Position numbers and translations under genes: made by a program | Part shown: positions 6,900 to 41,555 of the stretch, in pieces | Position numbering within the stretch: position 1 is the stretch's first letter | How the letters are laid out: every line of letters starts with the position of its first letter | The notes under the pieces: model-generated | The model's input: only the letters and a program-made list of their open reading frames with translations | What the model was told of the DNA's origin: nothing | The model's database searches: none | Assembly: GCF_013409745.1 (NCBI RefSeq) | Contig: NZ_JACCBH010000001.1 | Span: 1,674,001 to 1,738,000, forward strand | DNA: 64,000 nt | Direction: 5' to 3' | Source: Microbacterium pseudoresistens | GTDB taxonomy: Bacteria; Actinomycetota; Actinomycetes; Actinomycetales; Microbacteriaceae

Positions 6900-6922
6900 C
6901 CTCAATCGAAAGGCGAGGCGCG

Positions 6923-8005: not shown

Positions 8006-8014
8006 ACGCGCACG

Positions 8015-8572: not shown

Positions 8573-8601
8573 GGCCGGGCCTTGAAAACGGATAGAACAC
8601 C

Positions 8602-9894: not shown

Positions 9895-9926
9895 ACCCAT
9901 CCATCCAGAGAAGAAAGATCCTCACC

Positions 9927-11147: not shown

Positions 11148-11169
11148 CCCTCGCGCGACACCGAGAATC

Positions 11170-11176
11170 GAGGAGG
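11170..11176 (+). promoter_or_regulatory. Shine-Dalgarno site deciding the DUF35 start
   Basis: GAGGAGG lies 5 bases before GTG 11182. The other candidate, ATG 11140, overlaps the end of the thiolase-fold gene and has no comparable site. Confidence 0.6.
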
Positions 11177-11181
11177 AGAAC

Positions 11182-19858: not shown

Positions 19859-19953
19859 ATTGTCGATTGAGGGGGTGATTCGTCCGTCATAAGTTCAAGA
19901 CATTCGCCACGGGGCCGGACGCCGCGGTCGAAGACGACGAGAGGGATCTCTAT

Positions 19954-20736
19954 ATGACAACTGGCAGCGGCGGAGCCGCGGTCTCGCTCCGGGACGTCAG
20001 CAAGACGTTCCAGACCGCCTCGGGACCGATGCAGGTCGTCGACTCCGTGAGCGTCGACATCGAGGCGGGAAGCTTCGTCTCCGTGATCGGCCCTTCCGGA
20101 TGCGGGAAGACCACGGTGGTCCGCATGGTGGGCGACCTCCTCGCCCCGAGCGGCGGGGACATCCTCATCGACGGCCTCCCTCCATCCGCGGCGCGGGCGG
20201 CGCGTCAGTTCGGATTCGTCTTCCAACGACCGACCCTGGTGGAGTGGCGCTCGGTGCTGCGCAACGTGACCCTTCCCCTCGACGTGCTCGGATGGTCGCG
20301 GAAGGACAAGGAGAACCGTGGACGTGAGCTCCTGGAGCTCGTCGGCCTGGAGGATTTCGCCGACCACCGTCCCGATCAGATCTCCGGGGGGATGCAGCAG
20401 CGCGTCGCCATCGCCAGGGCGCTCTCCTACGACCCCGGCGTGCTGATCATGGACGAGCCCTTCGGCGCGTTGGATCTCATCACCCGTGACCGGATGGGCT
20501 TCGAGCTCCTGCGTATCCACGCGGAGGCGGGGAAGACCATCCTCTTCGTCACGCACAGTATCGACGAGGCCGTGCTCCTGTCCGACCGTGTCCTCGTCAT
20601 GGGTCCGAGGCCGACGGCCGTGCAGAAGTTCGAGCAGGTCGATCTTCCCCGCCCGCGCGTACCGGATCATCGCGACGACCCCACTTTCATCGGGCTCGCC
20701 CACGAACTCCGGGAGATGTTGGAACCCCATGACTGA
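19954..20736 (+). CDS. ABC transporter ATP-binding protein (NitT/TauT family)
   Basis: The 260-aa ATPase powers the import of a small solute. Walker A is GPSGCGKTT at about residues 47-55, the Q-loop lies near FQRPTLVEW, the signature is ISGGMQQRVAIARAL, and Walker B is VLIMDEPFGALD, followed by the H-loop in VTHSIDEA. The DEPFGALD plus SIDEAVLLSDRV pattern is typical of the nitrate/sulfonate/taurine/riboflavin-precursor class. It overlaps the permease gene by 8 bases and leads the island-2 operon. Confidence 0.93.
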   Translation: MTTGSGGAAVSLRDVSKTFQTASGPMQVVDSVSVDIEAGSFVSVIGPSGCGKTTVVRMVGDLLAPSGGDILIDGLPPSAARAARQFGFVFQRPTLVEWRSVLRNVTLPLDVLGWSRKDKENRGRELLELVGLEDFADHRPDQISGGMQQRVAIARALSYDPGVLIMDEPFGALDLITRDRMGFELLRIHAEAGKTILFVTHSIDEAVLLSDRVLVMGPRPTAVQKFEQVDLPRPRVPDHRDDPTFIGLAHELREMLEPHD

Positions 20737-21574
20737 CGCAACCTCTGTCGACAGCCCGCGCACGACGACGGTCGCGGTGGAGAAACCCGCCCGCAACGGC
20801 CTGCGCAAAGCCCTGACGAGTCTGCCCGCGATCATCTTCTACGGCGCGCTCCTGGTGCTCTGGGAGCTCGCGTCGCAGTTCGGCTGGGTGCGGTCATTCA
20901 TCCTGCCGGGGCCTTCTCTCATCGCGCAGTCGATCGCCCTCAACTGGGACTCGCTGTGGTCGAACACCCTCGTGACCGCACGGGAGATCCTGATCGGGTT
21001 CCTCGTCGGCTCGCTTCTGGGTTTCATCCTCGCCCTCGGGATCTTCTACTCGAAACCGCTGCGGACGATCATCTATCCCGGGGTCGTGTTCCTGCAGACA
21101 GTGCCCAAGGTCGCGCTCGCACCGTTGTTCCTCATCTGGTTCGGAGTGGGCGAATCGTCGATCGTCGCCATCACGGCGCTGATCTGCCTCTTCCCGATCC
21201 TCGTGAACACCGTCGTCGGCTTCGAAGGCGTCGACGTGAACCTCCTGGAGCTCATGCACTCGGTGTCGGCGAACGGCTGGCAGAAATTCCGCATGATCTA
21301 CCTGCCCGCGAGCCTCCCCGAGATCTTCGCCGGGCTCGAGGTCGGCATGTCGCTCGCCGTGGTGGGTGCCATCGTCGGCGAGTTCATCGGCGCCAGAGCG
21401 GGCCTGGGCTACCAGATCCTGATGGCGAACAGCCGGATCGACACCGCCGAGGTCTTCGCGGCGATCGTTTTCATCTCGGCGGTCGGAATGCTGTTCTACT
21501 TCGGCGTCCGCCTGCTGGGTCGTCTCCTGGTGGGGACGCGCGCCAATACGCGCACCGCCAGAGAGTCGGCCTGA
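20729..21574 (+). CDS. ABC transporter permease (NitT/TauT family)
   Basis: The 281-aa protein has about six membrane segments and the binding-protein-dependent permease motif in LLELMHSVSANGWQKFRMIYLPASLPEIFAGLEVG (EAA loop, quoted in part). ILPGPSLIAQSI and VPKVALAPLFLIWFG are typical of SsuC/TauC/ThiX-like permeases. The hydrophilic first 25 residues are variable. It overlaps the ATPase gene by 8 bases and is followed by the binding protein. Confidence 0.92.
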   Translation: MTDATSVDSPRTTTVAVEKPARNGLRKALTSLPAIIFYGALLVLWELASQFGWVRSFILPGPSLIAQSIALNWDSLWSNTLVTAREILIGFLVGSLLGFILALGIFYSKPLRTIIYPGVVFLQTVPKVALAPLFLIWFGVGESSIVAITALICLFPILVNTVVGFEGVDVNLLELMHSVSANGWQKFRMIYLPASLPEIFAGLEVGMSLAVVGAIVGEFIGARAGLGYQILMANSRIDTAEVFAAIVFISAVGMLFYFGVRLLGRLLVGTRANTRTARESA

Positions 21575-21619
21575 CGTCCTGCAACACACACCCCGAAACA
21601 CCAACCCTTTGGAGCATCC

Positions 21620-22675
21620 ATGCACCGCACACTGAAGTACCGGGCCATCGCCGCCGTCGGCGCGTCCGTGGCGCTTGCTCTCGCCCTCGGCGGGTGCGCA
21701 GCATCCTCCGACGAACCGGGCGGATCCGAGGGCGAGGGCGGCCTGGACCTGGTCACCCTGCGCCACTCCTGGGTCCCTGATCAGATCACCCTCCCGTACG
21801 CCGCAGCCAAGGCGCTGGGGTTCTATGAGGAGGAGGGCATCCAGCTCGTCGATCAGCCGGGCAACGGCGGCGCGACCTCCGTGCAGCTCGTCGCCAACGG
21901 CGAGGTCATGTTCGGCACGGGCGAGGCGTCGCACGTCATCTCCGCCCAGACCAAGGGCATCGAGCTCGTCTCGGTCATGCAGCAGTACCAGGAGCAGCCC
22001 AACGCCGTGATCACCATGAAGGACTCGGGAATCGAGGACTGGGACGATCTGCGTGGCAAGTCCATCGGCGGGGCCGTGGCCTCCTCCGGGCACCTCGCGA
22101 CCCTCGCCGCGCTGCAGCTGAAGGGTATCGACGAGAGCGAGATCGACTTCGTCAACCTCAGCCCCGGTGCGCAGTTCGCGGCTCTCTCCGAGGGGCAGGT
22201 CGACGCGGCCGGAACGTTCCTCGGCAACCTCGCGGCGCTCGACCTCAAGGACGAGGTGAACATCCTCACCGTCGCGGATGCCGGGTACATCGCTCCGTCC
22301 ACGAGCCTGTTCACCACCCCGGAGCTCATCGAGAAGAACCCCGACCTGGTCGAGCGCTTCGTGCGCGCCACCGTCAAGGGACTGCGGGCCGCGCTCGAGG
22401 ACCCCAAGGGCACCTCCGAGGCGATGGCGGGGATGTACGCGAACGTCAACGCCGAGTCCCTGCAGGCGACTTTCGAGATGGACAGCCGCTTCCTCGTCAA
22501 CGACTTCACCGACGAGAACGGACTCGGCATGCACAACGCCGACGCCTGGGAGCAGCAAGTCGAGATGCTCACCGAACTCGGCGAGCTCACCGGCGACGTC
22601 GACCTCTCGAAGGCCTTCACCAACGACTTCGTGGAGAAGACCGACAAGGCCGATCGCTCGTTCCCCCAGAAGTGA
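21620..22675 (+). CDS. ABC transporter substrate-binding lipoprotein (NMT1/SsuA-like)
   Basis: The 351-aa lipoprotein has a signal ending LGGC, lipid-modified at Cys26, then a Ser/Gly/Glu linker. The mature part follows the NMT1/THI5/SsuA fold: VTLRHSWVPDQITLPYAAAKALGFYEEEGIQLV, NGGATSVQLVANGEVMFGTGEASHVI and GKSIGGAVASSGHLATLAALQLKG (in part). Ligands of this family include sulfonates, pyrimidine precursors and aromatic acids, so the solute stays open. A TTTGGAGC site precedes the ATG. A strong hairpin separates it from the metallohydrolase gene, which would raise its dose over the catabolic genes. Confidence 0.9.
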   Translation: MHRTLKYRAIAAVGASVALALALGGCAASSDEPGGSEGEGGLDLVTLRHSWVPDQITLPYAAAKALGFYEEEGIQLVDQPGNGGATSVQLVANGEVMFGTGEASHVISAQTKGIELVSVMQQYQEQPNAVITMKDSGIEDWDDLRGKSIGGAVASSGHLATLAALQLKGIDESEIDFVNLSPGAQFAALSEGQVDAAGTFLGNLAALDLKDEVNILTVADAGYIAPSTSLFTTPELIEKNPDLVERFVRATVKGLRAALEDPKGTSEAMAGMYANVNAESLQATFEMDSRFLVNDFTDENGLGMHNADAWEQQVEMLTELGELTGDVDLSKAFTNDFVEKTDKADRSFPQK

Positions 22676-22678
22676 CCT

Positions 22679-22710
22679 CATCGGGGCCCGTTCTCCGACG
22701 GGCCCCGATG
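22679..22710 (+). terminator. Intra-operon hairpin after the binding protein
   Basis: A perfect 12-bp GC-rich stem (22679-22690/22699-22710) with an 8-base loop. It has no T-run, so it is more likely a partial terminator or mRNA stabiliser than a full stop, as the next gene has only a Shine-Dalgarno site before it. Confidence 0.6.
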
Positions 22711-22745
22711 CCCCATCCCTGACGAAGACGAAGAGGAGAACAGAC

Positions 22746-23936
22746 ATGGCGTTTCCCGAGGAGTACAAGCTCAAGTGGGCCGACTTCCCGCAGGACGAGT
22801 ACGAATCGCGCGTGCGCCGCGCGCAGGAGCTGATGGCGGAGGACGGACTCGACGTCGTCGTGCTCACCTCGGGTGAGAATGTCGAGTACTTCTCCGGTTT
22901 CCAGAACGGGCACTGGAACTCGAAGTCGTTCCCCACCGGAGCGCTTCTTCTGCACCGCACGAAGAATCCGGTGCTGATCATCCCGCGGTTCTTCTCCGGA
23001 ACGGCCTGGTCGTCGTCCTGGGTCGACGAGTACGCGATCTTCCCCGAACCGCACGCGGCCCCCCGCGATTTCGGGCGGGTCCTCGTCGATGCGGTCCGCA
23101 ACCTCGGCGGGGCGACGGCGGTCGTCGGCTTCGAGCGGGGCACGCACCTGTCGCCCGGGTGGAACTTCGACGACCTGATCTATGTCACCGAGCACCTCGT
23201 CTCGGGGGAGATGCGCAGCGCGGCTCGCGTGATCTGGGGCTGCCGCATGATCAAGTCGGCACGGGAGATGGATCGGATGCGCTGGCTCACCAAGATCGCC
23301 GACGAGTCGATCACGGCCGCGCGCAACGATCTGGCGCTCGGGCAGACCGAGCGAGAGGTCGGCAACCGCATCGCCGTGGAGATCATGGCCCGCGGCGGCG
23401 ACGACACCTCGTTCCGCAATATCAGGGCCGGATCCGACCGCTACCACTGCAGCGACTCGCTGCCGCAGGATCGCGCGTTCATCGACGGCGACCTCCTCAT
23501 CATCGACACCGGCGCCAAGTACGGCCAGTACGTCACGGACGTGGCGTACACGACTCTGCTCGGCACGGCGACCGACCGTCATCGCGAGGTCTACGACATC
23601 ACCGTCCGTGCGCAGGAGGCCGCGGTGGCGAAATGCCGTCCCGGCGTACCGGCCAAGGAGGTCTTCCTCGCTGCCGCACGCGTCATCGAGGAATCGGGAC
23701 TCACCAGTCTCGACATGATCGGGCACGGGATCGGCATGGATCTGCACGAGCCGATCATGCTCACGCCATACAACGACGAGGTGCTCCAGGAGGGGATGGT
23801 CCTCGCCGTCGAGCCGTGGCTCTACGACCCGAGCGGGCTGGGCGTCTTCGCGCTGGAGGAGCACGTGATCGTCACGGCGGACGACCCGGAGATGCTCTCC
23901 TCGATCCCGCGCGACGAGCTCCTCGAAGTCCGCTGA
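22746..23936 (+). CDS. M24 family metallohydrolase (creatinase/prolidase fold)
   Basis: This 396-aa protein has the creatinase-type N-terminal domain (about 1-165) and the pita-bread catalytic domain. Likely metal ligands are both Asp of IIDTGAKYGQYVTDV, the His of IGHGIGMDLHEP, the Glu of LAVEPWL and the Glu of FALEEHVIV, so the site appears complete. The family covers Xaa-Pro dipeptidases, creatinase and the DMSP lyase DddP, and sequence by eye does not separate them. Its place in an importer operon argues for a small imported molecule rather than general peptide turnover. It has an AGAGGAGA site and is followed after 5 bases by the first LLM gene. Confidence 0.88.
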   Translation: MAFPEEYKLKWADFPQDEYESRVRRAQELMAEDGLDVVVLTSGENVEYFSGFQNGHWNSKSFPTGALLLHRTKNPVLIIPRFFSGTAWSSSWVDEYAIFPEPHAAPRDFGRVLVDAVRNLGGATAVVGFERGTHLSPGWNFDDLIYVTEHLVSGEMRSAARVIWGCRMIKSAREMDRMRWLTKIADESITAARNDLALGQTEREVGNRIAVEIMARGGDDTSFRNIRAGSDRYHCSDSLPQDRAFIDGDLLIIDTGAKYGQYVTDVAYTTLLGTATDRHREVYDITVRAQEAAVAKCRPGVPAKEVFLAAARVIEESGLTSLDMIGHGIGMDLHEPIMLTPYNDEVLQEGMVLAVEPWLYDPSGLGVFALEEHVIVTADDPEMLSSIPRDELLEVR

Positions 23937-23941
23937 TCGAG

Positions 23942-24937
23942 ATGGCTCTGCCCGCACTCAGCATCCACCTCTCCAATCACGGCGACGCCGCGCGGACGGT
24001 CGAGGACATCGTCCTGGCGGAGTCGCGGGGCGTGCGGCGCGTGTGGGTGTCGGAGGATCTCTTCCACCGCGGGGCGATGCCGATCGTGGCTGCCGCGCTG
24101 GCGCGTACCCGCACGATCGAACTCGCGTTCGGCGTGCTGGCTCCGCAGCATCGGCATCCGGCATCCATGGCGATGGACATCCGCAGTCTTCGCGAGATCG
24201 GAGGCGACCGGATCATCATCGGACTGGGCTCCGGTGTCGCCGAGCGTGGCGCGCTGATCGCTCAGCCGGCGTCGCCACCGCTACGGATCGTAGACGAGGC
24301 GGTCTCGGCGCTGCGCACGCTGCTCGCCGGCTCCGCGCTCGATCAGGAGGGAGTGCTGCACACGTCGAAGGGGCTGCGTCTGACCGGAGCGTCGGCCATC
24401 CCGCCGGTGTATGTCGCCGCAGTCGGTCCCAAGGCGCTGCAGCAGGCGGGGCGGCGAATGGACGGCGTCGTGCTCACGATGATGTGCTCGCAGGAGCACG
24501 CGCGCTGGGCGGCGGGACGGGTCGCCGCTGCCGCCGTCGATGCCGGCCGGGGGCAGGTGCCGGTCGTGGCCTATCTGCCCATCGCGGTCGATGAGGACGG
24601 GGCGGAGGCGCGCGACCGCATGCGCGGCGTTCTCGGCTATTTCATCGCGCGGTGGTCGCAGGTGGCCTTCCTTTCAAAGCTCTTCCTGGACTGGAGCGAG
24701 CTCGACGTCGAGAGGATGACGCGGATCCGTGAAGCGTTCGATGCGGGCGAGCCGCTCGACGAGCTGCTGCCGGACGCGCTCGTGGACCAGTACTGCGTGG
24801 CAGGGACGGCCGAGGAGTGCCACCGCACGATCGAGGCGTTCGCCGAGGCGGGGATCACGGAGATCGCGTTCGACGCCAGTGACGACCTCGACGGCGTGAC
24901 GGCCCTGATCGCCGAGCTTCAGGACGGCGGGGCCTGA
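23942..24937 (+). CDS. LLM class (F420/flavin-dependent) oxidoreductase, first copy
   Basis: The 331-aa protein has the luciferase-like TIM-barrel pattern: ALPALSIHLSNHGD at the first strand, VEDIVLAESRGVRRVWVSEDLF, GVLAPQHRHPASMAMDIRSLREI and IIGLGSGVAERGAL. The central region has PVYVAAVGPKALQQAGRRMDGVV, as in F420-dependent methylenetetrahydromethanopterin-reductase relatives. It sits in one operon with a second LLM protein and with fgd, which regenerates reduced F420, so F420H2 is the likely cofactor. The substrate is unknown. Start ATG 23942 lies 5 bases after the preceding stop. Confidence 0.87.
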   Translation: MALPALSIHLSNHGDAARTVEDIVLAESRGVRRVWVSEDLFHRGAMPIVAAALARTRTIELAFGVLAPQHRHPASMAMDIRSLREIGGDRIIIGLGSGVAERGALIAQPASPPLRIVDEAVSALRTLLAGSALDQEGVLHTSKGLRLTGASAIPPVYVAAVGPKALQQAGRRMDGVVLTMMCSQEHARWAAGRVAAAAVDAGRGQVPVVAYLPIAVDEDGAEARDRMRGVLGYFIARWSQVAFLSKLFLDWSELDVERMTRIREAFDAGEPLDELLPDALVDQYCVAGTAEECHRTIEAFAEAGITEIAFDASDDLDGVTALIAELQDGGA

Positions 24938-24938
24938 G

Positions 24939-25913
24939 ATGCGCGTCGGGATCGCGCTGCCGCAGAGCTCAGCGGCAGCGCCAGGGCACCACGAGCTCAC
25001 CGCCCGGTTCGCCGGGAGGGCCGAGAAACTGGGCCTGGACAGCCTCTGGGTCCAGGAGCAGATGCTCGGCTCGGACCCGAGCCTGGAGCCGATCGTGAAC
25101 CTGGCCTTCGTCGCGGCGTGCACGCAGCGCATCCGCCTGGGCAGTGCGGCGATCATCGTCCCGCCGCGCAACCCCGTTGTCCTTGCCAAGCAGCTCACCA
25201 GCGTCGACCGGCTCAGCGGCGGGCGGCTGATCGCCGGGCTCGCCATCGGGGAGATGCCGCAGCTGTACGCCGCGTCCGGGGTGTCGCCGCGCGAGCGCGG
25301 TGCGCGGCTGGACGAGGCCGTCGAGGTCATCCGGGCGCTGTGGACCAGCACCTCGGTGCACATCGACGACGAGTACCGACGACTCGAGGGCGCGCGGATG
25401 GAACCGCAGCCGATCCAGCGGCCCCATCCGCCGATCTGGTTCGGCGGATCCTCGCAGGCGGCGCTGGTACGAGCCGCGCGGGTCGGACAGGGCTGGGTGG
25501 GCGCCGGCGGTTCCTCGTCGAGAGCGTTCGCCGAGGTCGCCGGTCGTCTGCGCGCGCTTCTTCTCGATCGACCGGGGTTCACGATCGCCAAGAAGGTCTA
25601 CTTCGCGGTGGAGAGCACGCGCGAGCGCGCCGAGGAGCGGATCGTGGACTGGTTCGCCGCGCACTGGGGCTCCTCGCGCGATCCGAACAGCCTTGCCGCC
25701 GACGTCGCCGTCTTCGGCACCGCCGCGCAATGCGCCGAGGCTCTCGAGAGTCTGGCGGAGGTCGGTGATCCCGACCTGCTCATCGTCAACCCGGTCTACG
25801 ACGAACCCGATCAGCTCGAGAGGCTCGTGGGAGAGGTGCTCCCGCATCTCCGCGAGGCGGTGAGCCTGCGCAACACTGCGCAGGACGGAGAGAAAGAGGA
25901 GCTATGGCGCTGA
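24939..25913 (+). CDS. LLM class (F420/flavin-dependent) oxidoreductase, second copy
   Basis: The 324-aa protein is a second luciferase-like oxidoreductase: [70 protein letters not shown] (in part) and [30 protein letters not shown]. It shares only the fold with its upstream neighbour, so the pair is not a recent duplication. It begins one base after the upstream stop and overlaps fgd by 10 bases. F420H2 use is inferred from the operon. Confidence 0.87.
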
Positions 25914-26920
25914 GTCTGGGATACAAGGCGTCCGCCGAGCAGTTCGGACCACGAGAGCTGGTGGAGCTTGCCGTGCAGGCCGAGCGGCACGGATTCGACT
26001 CCGCGACCGTCAGCGATCACTTCCAGCCCTGGCGCCACGTCGGCGGTCATGCGCCGTTCGCTCTGGCCTGGCTCGCCGCGGCGGGGGAGCGGACGGACCG
26101 GATCCGACTGGGAACGTCGGTGCTCACCCCCACGTTCCGCTATAATCCGGCTGTCCTCGCGCAGGCGTTCGCCACTCTCGGCTGCCTCTACCCGGGGCGC
26201 ATCATCCTCGGCGTGGGGTCCGGCGAGGCGTTGAATGAGATCGCGACTGGTTTCCAGGGAGCAGGAGAGCAGGTCTGGCCGGAGTTCCGCGAGCGCTTCG
26301 CCCGGCTCCGCGAGGCTGTGCGGCTCGTGCGTGCGCTCTGGGCGGGGGAGCGGGTCAGCTTCGAGGGCGACTACTACTCGACCCACGATGCGAGCATCTA
26401 CGATCGCCCCGTTTCACCGATCCCGATCTACATCGCCGCAGGGGGCCCTACCGTCGCGAAGTACGCCGGTCGCGCCGGTGACGGGTTCATCTGCACCTCC
26501 GGCAAGGGGCGCGAGCTCTACGTCGACGATCTGCTTCCCGCGGTCGCGGCGGGCGAACAGGCCGCAGGAAAGACCGAGGGCAGCACGGAACGGATGATCG
26601 AGATGAAGCTGTCGTTCGCGGACACGCTCGAGGAGGCGTACGAGAACACCCGTTTCTGGTCGCCGCTGTCTCTGTCGAAGCAGCAGAAGCACGACATCAC
26701 TGACCCGGTGGAGATGGAAAGGGCGGCCGACGCGCTGCCGATCGAGCAGATCGCCTCGCGCTGGATCGTCAGTGCGGACGCCGACGACGCCGTGCAGAAG
26801 ATCAAGGAGTACGTGGACATGGGGTTCACGCATCTCGTGTTCCATGGACCCGGTCAGGATCAGCGGCGCTTCATGGAGCTGTTCGAGCAACGGCTCGCCC
26901 CCCGGCTGCGGAAGCTCTGA
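25904..26920 (+). CDS. fgd: F420-dependent glucose-6-phosphate dehydrogenase
   Basis: The 338-aa protein closely follows mycobacterial Fgd1 as I recall it: [98 protein letters not shown] and [15 protein letters not shown]. The enzyme oxidises glucose-6-phosphate and reduces cofactor F420, feeding F420H2 to dependent reductases such as the two LLM proteins just upstream. It has an AAAGAGGAGCT site inside the preceding gene. A few extra residues (GAGEQV) are inserted around position 118 relative to Fgd1. It ends the operon and converges with the VOC gene. Confidence 0.93.
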
Positions 26921-26943
26921 GGGCGCGGCCGTCGGCGCGAGGA

Positions 26944-27378
26944 CTAACGCGGCAACTCGTGCCGCTCCAGGATGAGTCCACCGACGGCACGCGTATCGAA
27001 GTAGGCGAAACGGCCGCCGTCGGTGAGGCTGCCCTCGGACACGACGGGGAATCCCGCCTCCGCCATCTCCGCGGTATCGGCGTCGAGGTCGTCCGTATAG
27101 GCGCAGACGTGCAACGCGTGCTCGCCCCTGTCACGAAGGACCTCCGCCTGGACGCTGTCGCCGCTCACCGGCTGCAGCAGTTCCAACTCGATCGGACCGA
27201 GCTGCACGCAGGCGCCGCGGACCACGGCGTCCGAGGGCACCCCGTGAACGCGCCGGTCCGATGCGGTCTCGGACGGTCCCTCGTGGAACGGGCCGATGCC
27301 CGCCTTCGCATAGTGCGCGATGGCCTCATCGAGATCCGTGACGACGACGCCGATCTGATAGATCCGATCCCAGTTCAT
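26944..27378 (-). CDS. VOC family protein (glyoxalase/epimerase fold)
   Basis: The 144-aa protein is a single glyoxalase-type unit resembling methylmalonyl-CoA epimerase-like proteins: IYQIGVVVTDLDEAIAHYAKAGIGPFH, IELELLQPV, ALHVCAYTDDLDADTAEM and GLILERHEL. Possible metal ligands are the early His/Gln, Glu of ELELLQ and the late Glu of LILERH. Its promoter region contains a GTACATTCCGG element like those near the ABC operon and pucR, so it is likely part of the same regulon. GGAGGAATC precedes the start. Confidence 0.8.
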   Translation of the reverse strand: MNWDRIYQIGVVVTDLDEAIAHYAKAGIGPFHEGPSETASDRRVHGVPSDAVVRGACVQLGPIELELLQPVSGDSVQAEVLRDRGEHALHVCAYTDDLDADTAEMAEAGFPVVSEGSLTDGGRFAYFDTRAVGGLILERHELPR

Positions 27379-27440
27379 GATTCCTCCGACTTCGAGAGCG
27401 TTTCTGCGACGCTAACCAGCGGAGCGGGCGAACGGGATCG

Positions 27441-27453
27441 CCGGAATGTACAA
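27441..27453. promoter_or_regulatory. Candidate PucR operator, VOC promoter copy
   Basis: On the minus (VOC) strand it reads TTGTACATTCCGG. A partial second copy, CTGTACGGTCC, lies 30 bases further upstream at about 27472-27482. Confidence 0.4.
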
Positions 27454-27524
27454 GCTCGTCGGCGGCGTCCCCGGACCGTACAGATCGGTGAGGGCGAAGC
27501 CATGACCCGTCCGCGGGGATCGTC

Positions 27525-29045
27525 TCAGCCGACGCGCTGGTTGCGCAGTTCCACCGCGAGCCAGAGCTCGAGGTACTGCGAGGAGTCGGAGATGTCGTAG
27601 CCGCTCAGCTCGGTGATCCTCTTGAGCCTGGCGCGCATCGTGTGGCGATGGATCTGCATCGTCACCGCCGAGGCCTCGATGCTGGCGATGGAATCGAAGT
27701 AAGCGCGCAGCGTCGGCAGCAGTTCGTGGCGAGGGTTGGCCTGATCGTGCGCCTCCAGCGGCGCGAGCACGCCGTGGGAGAACTCGGAGAGCCGATCCTC
27801 GTCCGCGAGGAAGATGCGCCGCAGCTGGTGTCCCTGTTTCGGGGCCGTTGCGAGGGGTATCCCGCGGGTGCGCGCGGCGCTCTGCGCCCGCACCGCCTCG
27901 GTATGGCTCTGCGGCGTCCGCTCCGCAGGACCCGCCTCGCCGATGCCGGCGTCGCCCAGGCCCAGCTCCGCGATGAGCGCGCTGAGGCGATCGAACACGT
28001 CCGGGCGGGGATCGCAGAGGATCACGGTCGTCTGATCCTGATCGTTCAGGACGAGGGCGTCGCCGGCGAGGTCGTCGAGGCCGGCGAGGAAGGCACGACG
28101 CTGAGCCACCGACTGCGTGCGCACGCAGACGACCTGCGTGGATGCCGCATCGACCCTCGCCGCGGAGAAGACCGCCGCGAGGTTCTCAGAGTTCTCCTTC
28201 GCCGCCAGCAGCATCGCCGCCAGAGTCGCCCGCGCGTTCCGCAGCGGGGCACCGGCCATGTCCCGCAGGTCGAGGAGGAGTCCGAGCACGGGTGCGGCGA
28301 CCTTCAGGAGCGCGCGTTCCTCCGCGGTGAAAGGCACCCGCTTGGCGGAGACGGCGAATCCGCGGGCCCTTCCCTCGGTCACCAGCGGGAAGACGACCAT
28401 CGAGCGCCCGGCGTCCTCCTGGATCGAGATCGCGCCCTGTCGATCGCGCAGGAGCTGTCGGCGGATCCGACGGCTCAGCTCGTCGCCGAGGATGATGTCC
28501 GGTGTGTTGATCACGGGGCGCAGCCGGATGTCGTAGACGGACACCGCGAGTCCAGACATCGCGCGAAGACGCTCGGCGGCGCCCTCGAGGCCGCTTCCCG
28601 AGGCAGCCTCTGACATCAGCCGCTGCTGCGCGTCGACGAGAGAGCGCAGAGGCTGGGCGCTCGCCGCGCTGATGGCGTCGGCGACGGCGCGGACGACGGC
28701 CTGCAGCGGGGTCCGCTGCGGCACCAGGATGAGGCGCAATCCCGTCTTCTCCGCGGCGGCGATCAGCGCCTCGGGGATCGTCTGATGCGTGAGGTCGGAG
28801 CCGACGCTGACTCCGAGCGCCACCACCCCTCGCTCGACCAGCCGCTGACAGTAGCGGAGGGCGTCGTCGCCATCCCAGGAGGCGCTCAGTCCGGTGGTCA
28901 GGAGCAGTTCGCCGCCTTCGAGCCAAGGGGTGGGGTCGTCGAGCTCGCTGACGTGCGCCCATCGCACGTCGAGGTCCAGGGGGTCGCCGGTGAGCAGACG
29001 CAGGCCCAGATCGGGGTGGGCGAGGACGGTGCGGAGGGGGACCAT
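27525..29045 (-). CDS. PucR family transcriptional regulator
   Basis: The 506-aa regulator has the PucR layout: an N-terminal PucR-type ligand domain (VLAHPDLGLRLLTGDPLDLDVRWAHVSELDDPTPWLEGGELLLTTGL, in part), a GAF-like or GGDEF-like middle, and a C-terminal CdaR/PucR helix-turn-helix with AVTMQIHRHTMRARLKRITELSGYD and LELWLAVELR. Members control purine, allantoin or other nitrogen-compound catabolism. It is divergent from gcvPA with a GTACATT element between them and probably controls the whole island. No inducer can be named. Confidence 0.9.
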   Translation of the reverse strand: MVPLRTVLAHPDLGLRLLTGDPLDLDVRWAHVSELDDPTPWLEGGELLLTTGLSASWDGDDALRYCQRLVERGVVALGVSVGSDLTHQTIPEALIAAAEKTGLRLILVPQRTPLQAVVRAVADAISAASAQPLRSLVDAQQRLMSEAASGSGLEGAAERLRAMSGLAVSVYDIRLRPVINTPDIILGDELSRRIRRQLLRDRQGAISIQEDAGRSMVVFPLVTEGRARGFAVSAKRVPFTAEERALLKVAAPVLGLLLDLRDMAGAPLRNARATLAAMLLAAKENSENLAAVFSAARVDAASTQVVCVRTQSVAQRRAFLAGLDDLAGDALVLNDQDQTTVILCDPRPDVFDRLSALIAELGLGDAGIGEAGPAERTPQSHTEAVRAQSAARTRGIPLATAPKQGHQLRRIFLADEDRLSEFSHGVLAPLEAHDQANPRHELLPTLRAYFDSIASIEASAVTMQIHRHTMRARLKRITELSGYDISDSSQYLELWLAVELRNQRVG

Positions 29046-29116
29046 GCCTCACTCTCTCATGCGTCTTCGGTCGCGGCGAAGACGACCTCTCCACAACGGC
29101 GTCCCCGCCGTCGAAG

Positions 29117-29129
29117 ATGTACATTGCGG
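29117..29129. promoter_or_regulatory. Candidate PucR operator between pucR and gcvPA
   Basis: ATGTACATTGCGG on the plus strand matches the GTACATTCC(C/G)G strings at the two other island promoters. GTAC is itself palindromic, so the true site may be wider. Confidence 0.4.
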
Positions 29130-29190
29130 ATGCTGTTCGACCGAATCGCCGGTTCCTATCGTGGAGGAGTTCACCCCGAAGGAGGAGTCC

Positions 29191-30582
29191 ATGCGCGAGG
29201 TCGCGCGGTTTGCACATCCCTACATCCCCAACTCCGCTCCCGTCGTCAAAGCGGAGATGCTGGCGACCGTCGGTGTCGCCGACGTGGACGAGCTCTATGC
29301 CTCGATCCCGAATGCTCTGCGCTTCGAGGGCGAACTCGACCTGCCATCGGCGTTGGAATCGGAGGTCGCCCTCCGCCGCCACATGAACGGCCTGCTTGCG
29401 CGCAACGTCACCGCCGGCCAGACGCTCTCCTTCCTCGGCGCCGGTTGCTATCAGCACTACGTCCCCTCCATTTGCGGCGAGATCAACTCGCGGGCGGAGT
29501 TCCTGACCGCCTACGCGGGCGAGCCCTATGAGGACCACGGCAAGTGGCAGGCGATCTTCGAGTACACGAGCCTGATGGCGGATCTGCTGGAGATGGACGT
29601 CGTGAACGTACCGAACTACGACGGCTATCAGGCTGCGGCGACCGCGCTGAGGATGGCCGTGCGGATGACCGGCCGCGCCACCGTCCTCGTCTCGGACGCG
29701 GTGCTCGCCGACAAGCGTCGCAAGATCGAGTCGTATCTGGAGGGCGCGGCCACCGTGGTCGTGCTGCCCGTCGACCGTGAGACGGGGCGAGTCGTCCCCT
29801 CGGCGGTGGAAGAACGGATGGGCGATGACGTCGCCGCCGTGTACCTGGAGACGCCCAATGCGCTCGGCGTGGTCGAGACTGAGCTCTCGGCGATCGCCGG
29901 GATCGCACACGGCGCGGGGGGTCTGCTGATCTGCGGGGTGGAGCCGCTCGCACTCGGATTCCTGGAGAGTCCCGCCTCGTCCGGCGCGGACATCCTCTGC
30001 GGAGACATCCAGGCGCTGGGGCTGGGGATGCACTTCGGCGGTGCGCACGGCGGTTTCATCGCCACACACGACGAGGAGACGTTCGTCTACGAGTTCCCGT
30101 CCCGGTTGTTCGGCATCGCGCCGACCGTCGAGGACGGTGAGCTCGGCTTCACCGACGTGGCCTATGAGCGCACGTCCCTGGCGATGCGCGAGGAGGGGAT
30201 CGAGTGGGTCGGCACGGCTGCGGCCCTGTGGGGGATCACCGCCGGCGTGTACCTGTCCCTCCTCGGACCGCACGGACTGAGCGAGCTGGGCGAGACGGTG
30301 GCCGCCAACACCCGCTACGCGATCGAGAGGATCCGTGTTCTCCCCGGCGCTGAGATCATCGCCGCCGATGCCCCGCACTGGCGCGAGTTCGCCGTCCGCT
30401 TCGAGGGCCGGACGGCCGCCGAGGTGGAGAGCGGTCTGCGCGGGCGCGGGATCTTCGGGGCGGTGCCGCTGAGGCGCGAGCTCCCCGATCTCGGCGAGAC
30501 GGTCCTCTTCGCCGTCACCGAGATTCATTCGAGCGCGGACATCGACCGGCTCGCCGACGCCCTGGAGGGGATCCTGGCATGA
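29191..30582 (+). CDS. gcvPA: Glycine dehydrogenase (decarboxylating) subunit 1
   Basis: The 463-aa protein is the N-terminal half of a split P-protein. It shows PNSAPVVKAEMLATVGVADVDELYASIP, SFLGAGCYQHYVPSICGEINSRAEFLTAY, EYTSLMADLLEMDVVNVPNYDG (in part) and ALGLGMHFGGAHGGFIA. GcvPA has no PLP lysine; it builds the active site with GcvPB. An AAGGAGGAG site precedes ATG 29191. The split form is common in Firmicutes and archaea but unusual in actinobacteria, where P-protein is normally one chain. No gcvT or gcvH gene is nearby. It overlaps gcvPB by ATGA. Confidence 0.9.
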   Translation: MREVARFAHPYIPNSAPVVKAEMLATVGVADVDELYASIPNALRFEGELDLPSALESEVALRRHMNGLLARNVTAGQTLSFLGAGCYQHYVPSICGEINSRAEFLTAYAGEPYEDHGKWQAIFEYTSLMADLLEMDVVNVPNYDGYQAAATALRMAVRMTGRATVLVSDAVLADKRRKIESYLEGAATVVVLPVDRETGRVVPSAVEERMGDDVAAVYLETPNALGVVETELSAIAGIAHGAGGLLICGVEPLALGFLESPASSGADILCGDIQALGLGMHFGGAHGGFIATHDEETFVYEFPSRLFGIAPTVEDGELGFTDVAYERTSLAMREEGIEWVGTAAALWGITAGVYLSLLGPHGLSELGETVAANTRYAIERIRVLPGAEIIAADAPHWREFAVRFEGRTAAEVESGLRGRGIFGAVPLRRELPDLGETVLFAVTEIHSSADIDRLADALEGILA

Positions 30583-32249
30583 CGGATATCCTGACCGCTC
30601 GCACACCGCTCGCCGCGCTCTCCGATCAGGAGGGGCGGACGCCCCGCGATTATCACGCCGCGCGCTGGAACGAGCCGCTCATCTTCGCCCTGGGCAGTGA
30701 GGGCGAGCGGGGCGTCCGCGTTCCGCTCGCTGATCCGGCCGCCTTGGAAGCGCTCTCCCGTGGTGCGGAAGCGGCCGTGCGCCGTGCGCGGCCGACGGCG
30801 CTTCCCGAGGTCGGTCAGGCACAGGTGCTGCGGCATTTCCTCCGGCTGTCGCAGGAGACCCTCGGTGCCGATCTGAACGTGGACATCGGCCAGGGCACCT
30901 GCACGATGAAGTACAGCCCCAAGGTCAACGAGGAGTTCGCCGGAGCCGCGCAGAGCGTCGAGACGCATCCGTTGCAGCATCCGTCCACGGTTCAGGGGAC
31001 GCTGGAGATCCTCCACGAGCTGGAACGCGCAATCGCGTCCGTGTCGGGCATGGACGCGGTCTCGTTGCAGGCGGGTGCGGGGTCGGCCGCGATCTGGGGG
31101 AACGTGCAGATCGTCCGCGCGTACCACGCCGACCGCGGCGAGGGAGAACAGCGGGACGAGGTGGTCACGACGATCTTCTCCCATCCGTCCAACGCGGCGA
31201 CGGCGAAGACCGCCGGCTACCGCGTCGTCACGCTGTACCCCGGCGACGACGGGCTGATCGAGCTGGATGCCCTGCGCGCGGCGCTGTCGGAGCGCACAGC
31301 GGCGCTGCTCATCACGAACCCGGAGGATACCGGGATCTTCAATCCGGCGATCGCGGAGATCGTCGCCGCTGCGCACGAGGTGGGTGCACTGTGCGTCTAC
31401 GATCAGGCGAACGCGAACGGCATCCTCGGTATCACCCGGGCGCGGGAGGCGGGATTCGATCTGTGCCATTTCAACCTCCACAAGACGTTCTCCACACCTC
31501 ACGCGTGCGGGGGTCCCGCGGCAGGGGCGATCGGCGCGACCGCGGAGCTCGAGCCGTTCCTTCCTGGTCCGCGACTCGTCCGCGGCGAGGACGGATTCCG
31601 CCTCGAGGACCGCGGCCCGCGGACGACCGCGCCGATCCGTCCGTTCTGGGGCGTCGTGCCGAACCTGATCCGCGCGTACGCCTGGATCAGGGCGCTCGGT
31701 GCCGAGGGTCTGCGGGAGGTCGCCGAGATCGCGGTGCTGAACAACAATTACGTCATGAGCCGTCTGTCCGAGGTGGAGGGCGTTCGCCCCGCCTACCTGG
31801 AGGGCGCTCATCCTCCCATCGAGCAGGTGCGCTACAGCTGGGACGGTCTCGCCCGTGACACCGGGGTGACCTCAGGAGAGCTCGGACAGCGCCTCGCGGA
31901 CTTCGGCATGCACCTGTGGACGAGTCATCACCCCTACGTCGTGCCCGATCCGGCGACGATCGAGCCCACCGAGGCCTATGCGCGACGGGAGTTGGACGAG
32001 TACGTGGACGCGCTCCGCCAGGCGAGCGCCGAGGCGAGGGAGGACCCGGAGTTCGTCCGTCGTGCACCCTACAAGTCGAGCATTCATCACGTCGATGCCC
32101 AGTCGATGACCGATCCGGAGACCTGGGCGACGTCATGGCGCGCGTATCGGCGCAAGTATCTGGGAGAGGACGTGCGGATACCGGCCCACTGGTCTCCGTC
32201 GGTGGATTCTCCGACCCGCGAACGGCAAGAGAAGCTCTTCCACCGATGA
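30579..32249 (+). CDS. gcvPB: Glycine dehydrogenase (decarboxylating) subunit 2
   Basis: The 556-aa PLP subunit of the split P-protein carries the Schiff-base lysine in CHFNLHKTFSTPH and family blocks LGADLNVDIGQGTCTMKYSP, HPSTVQGTLEIL, VSLQAGAGSAAIWGN and TNPEDTGIFNPAI. The C-terminal part is longer than in many GcvPB proteins (about 480-490 aa), with an added tail of around 60 residues after PYKSSIHHVD. P-protein decarboxylates glycine onto lipoyl H-protein, yet no H or T gene accompanies it here. It may serve the genome's only glycine cleavage system or act on another amino acid released in this pathway. Confidence 0.9.
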   Translation: MTDILTARTPLAALSDQEGRTPRDYHAARWNEPLIFALGSEGERGVRVPLADPAALEALSRGAEAAVRRARPTALPEVGQAQVLRHFLRLSQETLGADLNVDIGQGTCTMKYSPKVNEEFAGAAQSVETHPLQHPSTVQGTLEILHELERAIASVSGMDAVSLQAGAGSAAIWGNVQIVRAYHADRGEGEQRDEVVTTIFSHPSNAATAKTAGYRVVTLYPGDDGLIELDALRAALSERTAALLITNPEDTGIFNPAIAEIVAAAHEVGALCVYDQANANGILGITRAREAGFDLCHFNLHKTFSTPHACGGPAAGAIGATAELEPFLPGPRLVRGEDGFRLEDRGPRTTAPIRPFWGVVPNLIRAYAWIRALGAEGLREVAEIAVLNNNYVMSRLSEVEGVRPAYLEGAHPPIEQVRYSWDGLARDTGVTSGELGQRLADFGMHLWTSHHPYVVPDPATIEPTEAYARRELDEYVDALRQASAEAREDPEFVRRAPYKSSIHHVDAQSMTDPETWATSWRAYRRKYLGEDVRIPAHWSPSVDSPTRERQEKLFHR

Positions 32250-33355
32250 CCTCCGCGTGCGGCCTCATCGTCAACCCCGTCGCCGGTGTCGGCGGCGAGG
32301 TTGCACTGGCGGGGAGCGACGGTGACCGGGTGCAGCGCCTCGCCCTCTCCAAGGGGGCGGTTCCGCGGGCGTCGCTGAAGGCGGGGCGGGCCGTCGGCGC
32401 GATCCTCGCGCGCAGTCCGGAGACGGTCTTCCTCACCGGAGGAGGAGTCCTCGGTGAAGACGTCTGCCGACGGGAGGGGGCCGGGCATCGTGTGCTCGTC
32501 CCCGCTCCGCAGTCGACGTCCGCGGAGGATACGCGACGGCTCGCACAGGCGCTCCGCGACGAGGGTGCCGAGCTGATCCTCTTCGTCGGGGGAGACGGCA
32601 CCGCCAGGGACGTCTGCGCCGTGATCGGCGAGGATATTCCGGTGCTCGGAGTCCCCGCCGGGGTGAAGATGCACTCCGGCGTGTTCGCGATCACTCCGGA
32701 GCATGCCGGACCGCTCGTGGCCACGGTGTTCGCGGGGCACCGGGCGGTCGAGCGCGCCGAGGTCGTCGACATCGACGAGGATGCGCGTCGCGCGGGCCGT
32801 CTCTCGGCACGGCTGTACGGTCATGTCTTGGTGCCCGTCGCCCCCGAGGCCGTGCAGCGCGGGAAGGCCGGCGTCTCGCCGGGCGATCCGTCCTCGGTCG
32901 ACGGTATCGCCGCCGAAGTCGCCGGCCGGTGGGAGCCGGGGGTCCCCTGCCTTCTCGGTCCGGGAACGACGGTGCAGCGGATCGCGGAACGCCTCGGGCT
33001 GAGCTCGTCGCTCCTCGGCGTCGACGTGGTTCTCGACGGGGTGCTGACGGGGAGCGATCTCGACGCCACCGCGCTGCACGACGCCGTCGGCGCCGGTCGG
33101 TTCCAGGTGCTGGTGTCTCCCGTTGGCGGTCAGGGCATGGTGCTCGGCCGCGGAAACCAGCAGATCGACGCCGCGCTGCTCTCCCGGCTCGACCCGGCGG
33201 ACCTGCTCATCGCCTGCCCTCCTCGCAAGCTCGCACAGTTCGCCGGTCGCGGCCTGCTCATCGACGCGCCGAGCGACGCTCTTAATCGTCGATTCCGCGG
33301 GATGCGGAGGGTGATCGTCGGCCACCGCGAGGACGCGCTCCTGCGCGTAGCATGA
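32246..33355 (+). CDS. ATP-NAD kinase family protein (AcoX-like)
   Basis: The 369-aa protein has the NAD kinase signature GGDGTARDV (FVGGDGTARDVCAVIGEDIPVLGVPAGVKMHSGVFAITP, in part) after an N-terminal GLIVNPVAGVGGEVAL. Its length and second-domain motif SPVGGQGMVLGRGNQQI place it with the AcoX-like branch seen in acetoin and related catabolic operons, not with housekeeping NadK. Its reaction is not settled; it may phosphorylate NAD or another nucleotide or small molecule. It overlaps gcvPB by ATGA and ends the operon. Confidence 0.85.
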   Translation: MTSACGLIVNPVAGVGGEVALAGSDGDRVQRLALSKGAVPRASLKAGRAVGAILARSPETVFLTGGGVLGEDVCRREGAGHRVLVPAPQSTSAEDTRRLAQALRDEGAELILFVGGDGTARDVCAVIGEDIPVLGVPAGVKMHSGVFAITPEHAGPLVATVFAGHRAVERAEVVDIDEDARRAGRLSARLYGHVLVPVAPEAVQRGKAGVSPGDPSSVDGIAAEVAGRWEPGVPCLLGPGTTVQRIAERLGLSSSLLGVDVVLDGVLTGSDLDATALHDAVGAGRFQVLVSPVGGQGMVLGRGNQQIDAALLSRLDPADLLIACPPRKLAQFAGRGLLIDAPSDALNRRFRGMRRVIVGHREDALLRVA

Positions 33356-33378: not shown

Positions 33379-34314
33379 GTGACCACCCCTTCGCGCACCT
33401 CACCGGTGGGCGTCGCCTATGGCGTCTCCGCCTACTTGCTCTGGGGGCTGCTGCCGATTTACTTCCTGCTGCTCGTGCCCACCGGCCCGTGGGAGCTGGT
33501 GGCCTGGCGCGTGCTGCTGTCGTTCGTGCTGTGCCTCGTGCTGCTCACGGTCGTGCGCGGATGGAAGCCTTTCCTCGCGATCGTGCGCCAGCCGCGACTG
33601 CTGGGCTGGACGGCGCTGGCCGGCGCGGTCATCTATGTCAACTGGCAGGTCTTCGTGCTCGCCGCGCTCTCGGACCACATCGTCGAGACGAGCCTGGGGT
33701 ACTTCATCAATCCGATCTTCACGGTGCTGCTGGGCGTCTTCGTGCTCGGCGAGCGGCTGCGCCCGCTGCAATGGACCGCCGTGGGCATCGCCGCGATCGC
33801 CGTGGTCGTCATCGTCGTCGCCTACGGATCGTTCCCGTGGATCGCCCTGACCCTGGCCGCCTCGTTCGGCAGTTACGGACTGATCAAGAAGAAGATCGGC
33901 CCGGCCGTGGACGCGCTCAGCGGCCTGACACTGGAATCGTTCTGGCTCGTCCCCGTCGCCGTCGTGCAGCTCGTGCTCGTCGCCCAGCTCGGCACGCTCA
34001 CCTACGGCACGGTCAGCACGACGCACACCGTGCTGCTGTCGTTCGCCGGCATCGCCACGGCCATGCCGCTGCTGCTGTTCGCCGCCAGCACGCGGCGGAT
34101 CGGCCTGTCGGTCGTGGGGATGCTGCAGTTCATCACCCCGGTCATGCAGTTCATCACGGGCGCGTTCATCCAGGGCGAGCCGATGCCCGTCGAGCGATGG
34201 ATCGGATTCGGGATCGTCTGGGTCGCGATCGCCGTCTTCCTCATCGATCTGGCGATCGCCGGCCGTCGCGACCGCCGTACCGCGCAGGCCGCCGCGGTCG
34301 GCGCGGTGGTCTGA
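33379..34314 (+). CDS. rarD: EamA family transporter RarD
   Basis: The 311-aa membrane protein has about ten hydrophobic helices arranged as two EamA halves, with GVAYGVSAYLLWGLLPIYFLL, NWQVFVLAALSDHIVETSLGYFINPIFTVLLGV and LQFITPVMQFITGAFIQGEPM, quoted in part, as in RarD/YojE drug-metabolite exporters. Its natural substrate is unknown. The start follows a TAAGGT box by 6 bases. Confidence 0.92.
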   Translation: MTTPSRTSPVGVAYGVSAYLLWGLLPIYFLLLVPTGPWELVAWRVLLSFVLCLVLLTVVRGWKPFLAIVRQPRLLGWTALAGAVIYVNWQVFVLAALSDHIVETSLGYFINPIFTVLLGVFVLGERLRPLQWTAVGIAAIAVVVIVVAYGSFPWIALTLAASFGSYGLIKKKIGPAVDALSGLTLESFWLVPVAVVQLVLVAQLGTLTYGTVSTTHTVLLSFAGIATAMPLLLFAASTRRIGLSVVGMLQFITPVMQFITGAFIQGEPMPVERWIGFGIVWVAIAVFLIDLAIAGRRDRRTAQAAAVGAVV

Positions 34315-34420: not shown

Positions 34421-35665
34421 ATGAACCGAACGAAGAGCTCGCGGAAGAGCCTACTCGCGGGTATCGCGCTGATCGGCGCCTCGGCACTGGTCATCACCGG
34501 ATGTGCGGGAAACGCCGCCACTCCGGAGTCCTCGGACGCGCCGGCCGATGTCGACCTCACACTGAAGCTCGGCTCGCTCCTGCCGTCGACGGGAACGCTG
34601 GCGTTCCTCGGCGCGCCGATGAACGCCGGTGTCGAGCTCGCCGTCGCGGAGATCAACGAGGCCGATGCCGGGATCACCGTCGATCTCACCGCCGAAGACG
34701 AGGGCGACCTCGACAACAAGGCGTACGAGACCTCGATCACCAACCTGCAGAGTGCGGGCATCACGGCCATGATCGGTGCCGCATCCTCGGGTGTGTCCAA
34801 GCTGATCCTCGACGGGAACGCCGGTGCGGGCATCCTCACCGTGTCGCCGTCGAACACGTCGGCGGAGTTCACGGGCATCAACCCGCTGTACTTCCGCACC
34901 GCCCCCAGCGACAGCCTGCAGGGCGAGGTGCTGGCCAACCAGGTGGCCGAAGACGGCCACAGCACGCTCGGCATCATCTACCAGAACGACCCGTACGGCT
35001 CGGGCCTGTTCGACAGCATCAAGACCACGTTCGAGGGAACGGGCGGCCAGGTCGTCGCCGATGCGTCGTACAACCAGACCGACGGTCAGTTCAACGCCCA
35101 GGTGCAGACGATCGCCGCAGCCAAGCCGGATGCCGTCGCCATCGTCTCGTACGACCAGTTCCTGACCATCGCACCGCTGCTGGTCAACGCCGGCATCAAC
35201 CCGGGTTCGCTGTACCTGGTCGACGGTAATCTGAAGGACTACCCCGACCTGCCCGTCGACCTGACCGGGTCGAAGGGGACGCGCGCCGGTGCCGACCTGC
35301 CCGACTCGTTCCTCGACGACCTCAACGCGGCCTGGACCGCCAAGGGCAACGACCCGATCGACGCCGTCACGTACTCCGCCGAGGCGTACGACGGCGTCAT
35401 CCTGATCGCGCTGGCCGCCCTCAAGGCCGGATCGGTCGAGGGTGCCGACATCGCCGAGAACATGCAGGAGGTCTCCGGCGGCAGCGGCAAGGGTGAGAAG
35501 TGCACGAGCTTCGCCGAGTGCGCGAAGATCATCGCGTCCGGCGGCACGGCCGACTACGACGGCTACTCCGGCGAGATCACCTTCGACGACCAGAACGACC
35601 CGAAGGGCGCCGACGTCGGCGTCTACGAGTACGGGGCGGGCAACGTCCAGACGCGCATCAAGTAA
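34421..35665 (+). CDS. livK: Branched-chain amino acid ABC transporter substrate-binding lipoprotein
   Basis: The 414-aa receptor has a lipoprotein signal ending ITGC, Cys28, and a type I periplasmic-binding fold: LKLGSLLPSTGTLAFLGAPMNAGVELAVAEINEA, AAKPDAVAIVSYDQ and TYSAEAYDGVILIALAALKAG (in part). This is the LivJ/LivK/amide-urea receptor class. ATG 34421 has AAAGGAGC at the right distance. livHMGF lie on the opposite strand and converge on it; both units share the terminator at 35676-35721. The ligand may be a branched-chain amino acid or an amide such as urea. Confidence 0.9.
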   Translation: MNRTKSSRKSLLAGIALIGASALVITGCAGNAATPESSDAPADVDLTLKLGSLLPSTGTLAFLGAPMNAGVELAVAEINEADAGITVDLTAEDEGDLDNKAYETSITNLQSAGITAMIGAASSGVSKLILDGNAGAGILTVSPSNTSAEFTGINPLYFRTAPSDSLQGEVLANQVAEDGHSTLGIIYQNDPYGSGLFDSIKTTFEGTGGQVVADASYNQTDGQFNAQVQTIAAAKPDAVAIVSYDQFLTIAPLLVNAGINPGSLYLVDGNLKDYPDLPVDLTGSKGTRAGADLPDSFLDDLNAAWTAKGNDPIDAVTYSAEAYDGVILIALAALKAGSVEGADIAENMQEVSGGSGKGEKCTSFAECAKIIASGGTADYDGYSGEITFDDQNDPKGADVGVYEYGAGNVQTRIK

Positions 35666-35675
35666 GCGCTGACCA

Positions 35676-35721
35676 CGAGAGAAAGGGCTCCGGATCACCC
35701 GATCCGGAGCCCTTTCTCTCG
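35676..35721. terminator. Bidirectional terminator between livK and livF
   Basis: A perfect 21-bp inverted repeat with an ACCC loop. It lies between convergent 3' ends and can stop transcription from both sides. Confidence 0.9.
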
Positions 35722-35735
35722 TGCGTTCGTGTCGG

Positions 35736-38441: not shown

Positions 38442-38442
38442 C

Positions 38443-39804: not shown

Positions 39805-39808
39805 TGGG

Positions 39809-39814
39809 CCTCCT
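39809..39814 (-). promoter_or_regulatory. Shine-Dalgarno site deciding the livH start
   Basis: AGGAGG on the minus strand lies 4 bases before GTG 39804, favouring it over the in-frame ATG 15 bases later. Confidence 0.6.
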
Positions 39815-39908
39815 GTCCGAGGGGGACCGAGGCAGTATCGGGTGCATCGGCCTCGATGTCGACGGTATGAGCGTAATCCGTCGGGTCTGCTTCGGCCAAC
39901 GGTCGTGA

Positions 39909-41555
<1,647 letters not shown>

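Follow-up and report, generated by a model that had tools for sequence, protein, structure and literature searches.

What does the gene cluster at positions 19954-33355 of a 64,000-nucleotide stretch of the Microbacterium pseudoresistens genome encode, and do its members form one system? The stretch, hereafter the window, covers positions 1,674,001 to 1,738,000 of contig NZ_JACCBH010000001.1; the host genome is a single contig of 2.91 Mb, 99.96% complete, with 69% G+C. Gene families were assigned by Pfam and NCBIfam profile searches, with start sites refined afterwards, and all those named in an earlier interpretation of the DNA letters (the sequence-only reading) were recovered in the same places. 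The genes fall into two plus-strand operons, the first (19954-26920) encoding an ATP-binding cassette (ABC) importer, an M24 metallohydrolase, two luciferase-like proteins (LLM1 and LLM2) and the F420-dependent enzyme Fgd, and the second (29191-33355) encoding GcvPA- and GcvPB-like subunits and an AcoX-like kinase. They are separated by a VOC/glyoxalase gene and a PucR gene, both on the minus strand. We draw this two-operon layout from overlaps of 4-10 bases at the ATPase/permease, LLM2/Fgd, GcvPA/GcvPB and GcvPB/AcoX junctions. We lean towards the view that the locus is one PucR-controlled accessory catabolic island, whose pyridoxal phosphate (PLP) enzyme does not act on glycine. The sequence-only reading had called this enzyme a split glycine decarboxylase; that label is probably wrong, and GcvPB appears to belong to a separate, mislabelled enzyme family.

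The phylogeny of GcvPB provides the first line of evidence. In a tree of 78 rows (18 clade and 60 canonical; some rows are long or compositionally odd, and the midpoint root serves for drawing only), the window GcvPB (30579-32249, plus strand) groups in a separate clade of 18 rows, with a support of 100/100 and a stem of 1.25 changes per column. Ten rows are of the window's kind (the window itself, Paeniglutamicibacter, Arthrobacter, a rumen Bacillota metagenome-assembled genome and six further genomes of the host's phylum) and the other eight are plasmid-borne. The clade is spread over actinobacteria (Arthrobacter, Paeniglutamicibacter, Rhodococcus), alphaproteobacteria, the rumen Bacillota genome and a haloarchaeon. 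Two rows were duplicates: L062, identical to L091, was left out of both tree and counts, whereas L093, which repeats L064, was left out of the signature test but is one of the 60 canonical tree rows.

Residue signatures set the same clade apart. Of the 59 canonical rows compared, 23 carry GcvPA and GcvPB in one frame (fused), 33 in different frames (split) and 3 are unclear (L037, L054, L089), the signature test itself having sorted them as 25 fused and 34 split. Sixty-seven GcvPB columns are invariant in these 59 rows; the 18 clade rows uniformly lack 14 of them and uniformly retain 33. In the control comparison, 80 columns are invariant in the split rows, of which 15 are missing from all clade rows and 6 from all fused rows. 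K302, D275, H202 and H301, which we take to be the PLP residues with K302 as the Schiff-base lysine, are kept in 18 of 18 clade rows. For the GcvPA-like subunit (29191-30582, plus strand), 17 clade rows (L091 is without GcvPA) were compared with 56 canonical rows, and 2 of 17 invariant columns, Q111 and L119, are absent from every clade row. This smaller test is not clearly above its control: measured against split rows, the clade lacks 3 of 23 columns and the fused rows lack 2 of 23. Even so, the GcvPA motif YTPYQPExSQG is replaced in the window, and its second tyrosine falls in an alignment gap. By our offset the two tyrosines of this motif are human Y161 and Y164, active-site residues according to an excerpt of PMC7259800. 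A structure prediction of the window GcvPB was too poor for use (predicted local distance difference test, pLDDT, 48.4).

Gene order in relatives supports the idea of a single PucR-linked catabolic system, as the sequence-only reading had proposed. The PucR-type regulator of the window (27525-29045, minus strand) has both expected domains (PF07905, 90.9 bits; PF13556, HTH_30, 62 bits). Its relatives at 36-38% identity adjoin an M24 gene in locus L127 and GcvPA in L060, and a third, at 35%, lies one gene from GcvPA in L009. In genome G194, contig L127 carries, in this order, the importer ATPase (69% identical to that of the window), permease (63%), binding protein (54%), M24 (64%) and PucR (36%), within which the contig stops. 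Genome G084, of the same genus, has a PucR that is 76% identical to that of G194 and directly precedes GcvPA (60%) and GcvPB (62%). Thus, PucR links both halves in that genus, since it adjoins the importer and M24 in G194 and GcvPA-GcvPB in G084. The M24-LLM1 pair is found in L059 and L061, and G084 has it on a different contig from its GcvPB. The sequence-only reading would have been contradicted by halves that never co-occur elsewhere; this did not turn up, given that G084 carries LLM1 as well as a GcvPB of the clade.

Several observations weigh against a single system. Relatives of LLM1 (at least 49% identity) are scarce: the order sample of 248 genomes has three genomes with one, host counted, a second draw of 396 has the same three, and the phylum sample of 316 has the host alone. 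GcvPB of the clade type (at least 58% identity) is present in 6 of the 248 order genomes, with 26 further matching genomes being distant (33-38%), and in 2 of the 316 of the phylum (the host and G446, 62%), where 78 more genomes have matches of at most 42%. With the host excluded, LLM1 and the GcvPB clade overlap in one genome (hypergeometric P 0.04), which is weak alone, and the two halves of that genome, G084, are on separate contigs. Beside its PucR, G084 has no importer or M24 match of the window's kind. No GcvPB match was found in G194 at E 1e-60 (this genome is 69% complete), an AcoX-like gene was not matched in either genome at E 1e-10, and LLM2 and Fgd were not found in the stretches searched in both. 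The M24-LLM1 pair adjoins a family-5 binding protein in G084 and G194; the neighbouring importer is of the oligopeptide type in G084, which has an ATPase and a permease of that type, and probably also in G194.

A rather unlikely, yet tenable, explanation is that two unrelated catabolic modules, importer-M24-LLM-Fgd and PucR-GcvPA-GcvPB-AcoX, adjoin by chance. The differing importer type between genomes and the weakness of the operator motif described below would fit such a scenario, as would the fact that, in the other 17 loci of the clade, the surroundings of the GcvPA/GcvPB pair gave no relative of M24 or LLM at E 1e-10. However, it leaves unexplained the PucR relatives that accompany one half in G194 and the other in G084. 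In addition, a Natronosalvus plasmid joins M24 proteins, an LLM of TIGR03619, GcvPA/GcvPB and an AcoX-like gene in about 58 kb, although its M24 and LLM are only 27% alike to those of the window. For 16 of the 18 clade loci, all but L060 and the window, the DNA retrieved contains a match to a short-chain dehydrogenase/reductase (SDR), a common family. Because most clade relatives carry an SDR, with no M24 or LLM relative nearby, the gene combination of the window may not be a single pathway everywhere. Other neighbours in the clade include amidohydrolases (L009, L012, L015) and, in two Rhodococcus loci, M20 deacylases with AMP-binding ligases; in the window, M24 and the LLM enzymes may take the hydrolase and redox places. 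Amine, hydroxyproline and carnitine routes, each hinted at by plasmid neighbours, were set aside, the neighbouring genes varying between loci.

The sequence-only reading also counted on a similar candidate operator at each transcription unit. The gap between PucR and GcvPA contains a perfect 7-7-7 inverted repeat, GTCTTCG-N7-CGAAGAC (29063-29083, plus strand), a candidate operator of which the window has no second perfect copy; when two mismatches are allowed there are 2 matches, a number that 6 of 100 shuffles reach. A related motif, CGTCTTCG[AG][CT]CGCGGC, occurs upstream of the importer (19921-19936, minus strand) and between PucR and GcvPA (29062-29077, plus strand), and its importer-side copy, a candidate half-site, corresponds to the left half and centre of the inverted repeat. 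The pattern was derived from these same two copies, and five more window sites match it with 1-2 mismatches. When the best word shared by both gaps was compared with 150 random window segments, the 16-mer was equalled by 5 and the 18-mer by 2. Against co-regulation, this result depends on word length (12-, 14- and 20-mers were equalled by 19, 33 and 53 of the 150 segments), and five promoter regions from relatives (L060, L127, L009) yielded no copy of the motif even with 4 mismatches allowed. When the region preceding the glyoxalase gene was added as a third gap, no clearly common word emerged. The motif therefore modestly supports co-regulation of two units, as a single two-copy element of modest significance, and the claim of an operator at every unit is not supported.

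Is the GcvPA/GcvPB pair nevertheless the glycine cleavage enzyme that its profile scores would indicate? Both subunits exceed the NCBIfam equivalog cut-offs (GcvPA, 456.7 bits against 364 for NF001696; GcvPB, 532.6 against 441 for NF003346). With the host GcvT and GcvH as queries, none of the 18 clade loci, window included, gave a neighbouring gcvT or gcvH (the L091 locus comprises only 4.2 kb). In contrast, five of seven canonical split controls have both genes next to the GcvP pair, the exceptions being L106 and L107. The host's own gcvT, gcvH and fused gcvP are clustered near 97-103 kb. Despite the equivalog scores, the signature loss and the missing gcvT/gcvH neighbours thus make it unlikely that GcvPA/GcvPB serves as the glycine cleavage enzyme of the host, and decarboxylation by the pair as a glycine decarboxylase, as in the sequence-only reading, is not supported. 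The split GcvPA/GcvPB of Thermus thermophilus (1WYT) offers an instructive comparison. It is likewise a two-subunit PLP enzyme, to which the window proteins align over nearly their full length (315 and 223 bits), and what we take to be its Schiff-base lysine, aspartate and histidines are kept. It differs in that the window pair stands in its own clade, has lost 14 GcvPB positions and has an AcoX-like kinase in place of the gcvT/gcvH neighbours. A true second glycine decarboxylase, using the chromosomal GcvH and GcvT while the imported compound yields glycine, could claim the equivalog scores, the retention of the PLP lysine and of 32 further invariant GcvPB residues, and a host GcvH able to serve in trans, but this simple glycine route is improbable on the signature and context tests, given the 14 lost positions, the replaced GcvPA motif with its gap at human Y164 (PMC7259800), the failure to find gcvT/gcvH at any clade locus and the gcvT-gcvH-gcvP set that the host already has.

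The closest partner of the atypical pair is the AcoX-like kinase (32246-33355, plus strand). It belongs to the NAD-kinase type (PF01513, 68.8 bits; PF20143, 27.3 bits), carries the NAD-kinase domain and has an intact GGDGTA motif, which is invariant in 12 aligned AcoX-like rows. An AcoX-like gene adjoins GcvPA/GcvPB in 15 of the 18 clade loci; it is 2.8 kb away in L012, and in Natronosalvus it lies 54 kb from the pair on the same plasmid. Among the 248 genomes of the order it occurs in 5, every time beside a clade GcvPB. In PLSDB, AcoX-like genes are present on 8 of 8 plasmids with a clade GcvPB and on 0 of 12 other listed GcvPB plasmids, out of 23 GcvPB plasmid records (14 placed in the tree, 8 within the clade and 6 outside; 6 listed without placement; 3 beyond those listed). 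The predicted model of the kinase (pLDDT 82.6) gave no Foldseek match at E 0.001; in a further fold look-up kinases scored no better than unrelated proteins. Coverage was poor past residue 207 or so, which is no sign that this part is novel. AcoX of acetoin catabolism in Pseudomonas putida, a possible counterpart, is also a predicted small-molecule kinase that travels with the genes of another enzyme, the partner being acetoin dehydrogenase there and a PLP enzyme here.

Two plasmids show related arrangements. That of the haloarchaeon Natronosalvus halobius (L100, L104; about 62-124 kb) holds a clade GcvPA/GcvPB, several M24-type proteins, the TIGR03619 LLM and the AcoX-like kinase within about 58-60 kb, in a stretch that also includes two dipeptide-type importers. 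On a Peptoclostridium acidaminophilum plasmid (L101:6992-9068; seen through the annotation table and one protein), an AcoX-like gene overlaps the gene of a HisC/CobD-like PLP enzyme, another pairing of such a kinase with a PLP enzyme. A threonine-phosphate role for this kinase with a CobD-like partner is at most a possibility, the partner scoring 230.5 for HisC (cut-off 276.55) and 144.4 for CobD (290.55).

The first operon opens with the importer, whose ATPase (19954-20736, plus strand; PF00005), permease (20729-21574, plus strand; PF00528) and NMT1/SsuA-type binding protein (21620-22675, plus strand; PF09084, 149.7 bits) together make up an importer of the NitT/TauT type, with the same trio in L127. 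The ATPase is NitT/TauT/SsuB-like, its best NCBIfam matches (proV, SaoA, ntrCD, TauB) all being under cut-off, as are the SaoP/SsuC-like matches of the permease. The prolidase-like M24 metallohydrolase follows (22746-23936, plus strand; PF00557 and PF01321), with 57-64% relatives in G084 and G194. It shares the Creatinase-N and M24 domain architecture of DoeA (from ectoine degradation), creatinase and prolidase, and five positions that we take to be metal ligands align with those of prolidase 1pv9. It scores under cut-off for all 15 listed family models, and identities as DoeA (103.6 bits against 575 for DoeA_2; 49.9 against 613) or DddP were rejected on scores far under cut-off. Creatinase was likewise set aside, 1chm being only a weak match (39 bits).

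Next come the luciferase-like proteins. LLM1 (about 23942-24937, start approximate, plus strand; PF00296) is nearest to F420-dependent methylene-tetrahydromethanopterin reductase, with Mer 1z69 as best PDB match, and LLM2 (24939-25913, plus strand) exceeds the TIGR03619 cut-off (183.9 bits against 166.9). Fgd, an F420-dependent glucose-6-phosphate dehydrogenase (25904-26920, plus strand), scores 588.1 bits for TIGR03554, well over the equivalog cut-off of 420, and aligns over its full length with 5lxe and 3b4y. A second Fgd in the host, 76% identical to that of the window, directly follows a stand-alone CofE-type F420 ligase (C1:1465189-1466999, equal to L123:9190-11000); CofE was found at 169 bits. 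In these scores the set resembles known F420-dependent Fgd/LLM systems, from which it differs in that CofH (TIGR03551) and CofD (TIGR01819) gave no match in the host genome at E 0.001. To our knowledge, the 14 control genomes of that search include no F420-making actinobacterium, which makes F420 synthesis in the host uncertain. Of the scheme put forward in the sequence-only reading, Fgd is certain by family score, while reduction by two LLM proteins with F420H2 is doubtful in view of the unsuccessful searches for CofH and CofD. If these are truly missing, the LLM/Fgd set would need salvaged F420 or another cofactor.

Returning to the single island that we favor, its parts might act as follows. 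Judging by their families, the NitT/TauT-type importer would take up a small nitrogen compound, of which the M24 metallohydrolase would cut a C-N bond. The two LLM oxidoreductases and Fgd would carry out deazaflavin-linked redox steps, with Fgd in the recycling role. An amino-acid-like product would then pass to a PLP enzyme of GcvPA- and GcvPB-like subunits that has departed from the glycine cleavage system and may act jointly with the AcoX-like kinase. We infer the order of these steps, the common substrate, the use of F420 by LLM1 and LLM2, and a kinase acting on that substrate or on the product of the PLP enzyme. A bolder proposal, which we regard as a long shot, is that GcvPA*-GcvPB*-AcoX constitutes an unrecognised module, in which a P-protein-derived PLP enzyme would work without lipoate, GcvH or GcvT. 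Decarboxylation or elimination would be driven by the kinase through phosphorylation of the substrate, which might be a hydroxylated amino acid. Preparing this substrate would fall to a hydrolase (M24 in the window; an amidohydrolase or M20 enzyme in other loci) and a dehydrogenase (LLM/F420 in the window; SDR in other loci). In the titles and abstract openings of the open-access papers searched we found no description of a non-glycine GcvPA/GcvPB clade or of its link to AcoX.

The remaining genes of the region include the VOC/glyoxalase-fold protein between the operons (26944-27378, minus strand; PF13669) and a RarD/EamA exporter (33379-34314, plus strand; over the TIGR00688 cut-off), possibly co-transcribed with the second operon, a gap of 23 bases separating it from AcoX. 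Elsewhere in the window, a second catabolic set at 4652-12830, perhaps what the sequence-only reading counted as its first island, comprises a TRAP importer, two CaiB-type CoA-transferases, a thiolase-like protein and a PcaR/IclR-type regulator. An ABC importer of the branched-chain amino acid/urea type occupies 34421-39915, divided between the plus strand (binding protein) and the minus strand (ATPase, two permeases).

Annotated plasmid records call members of the clade glycine dehydrogenase. These public names are probably wrong, since both equivalog models, NF001696 and NF003346, accept the non-canonical pair of the window. If the assignment proposed here is true, a P-protein relative free of glycine cleavage and tied to a kinase would make the role of AcoX-type kinases testable in a simple pair, and kinase-driven logic of the kind outlined above could account for the need of acetoin dehydrogenase for AcoX. 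The PucR bridge, in turn, would provide a concrete regulon with which to find the compound.

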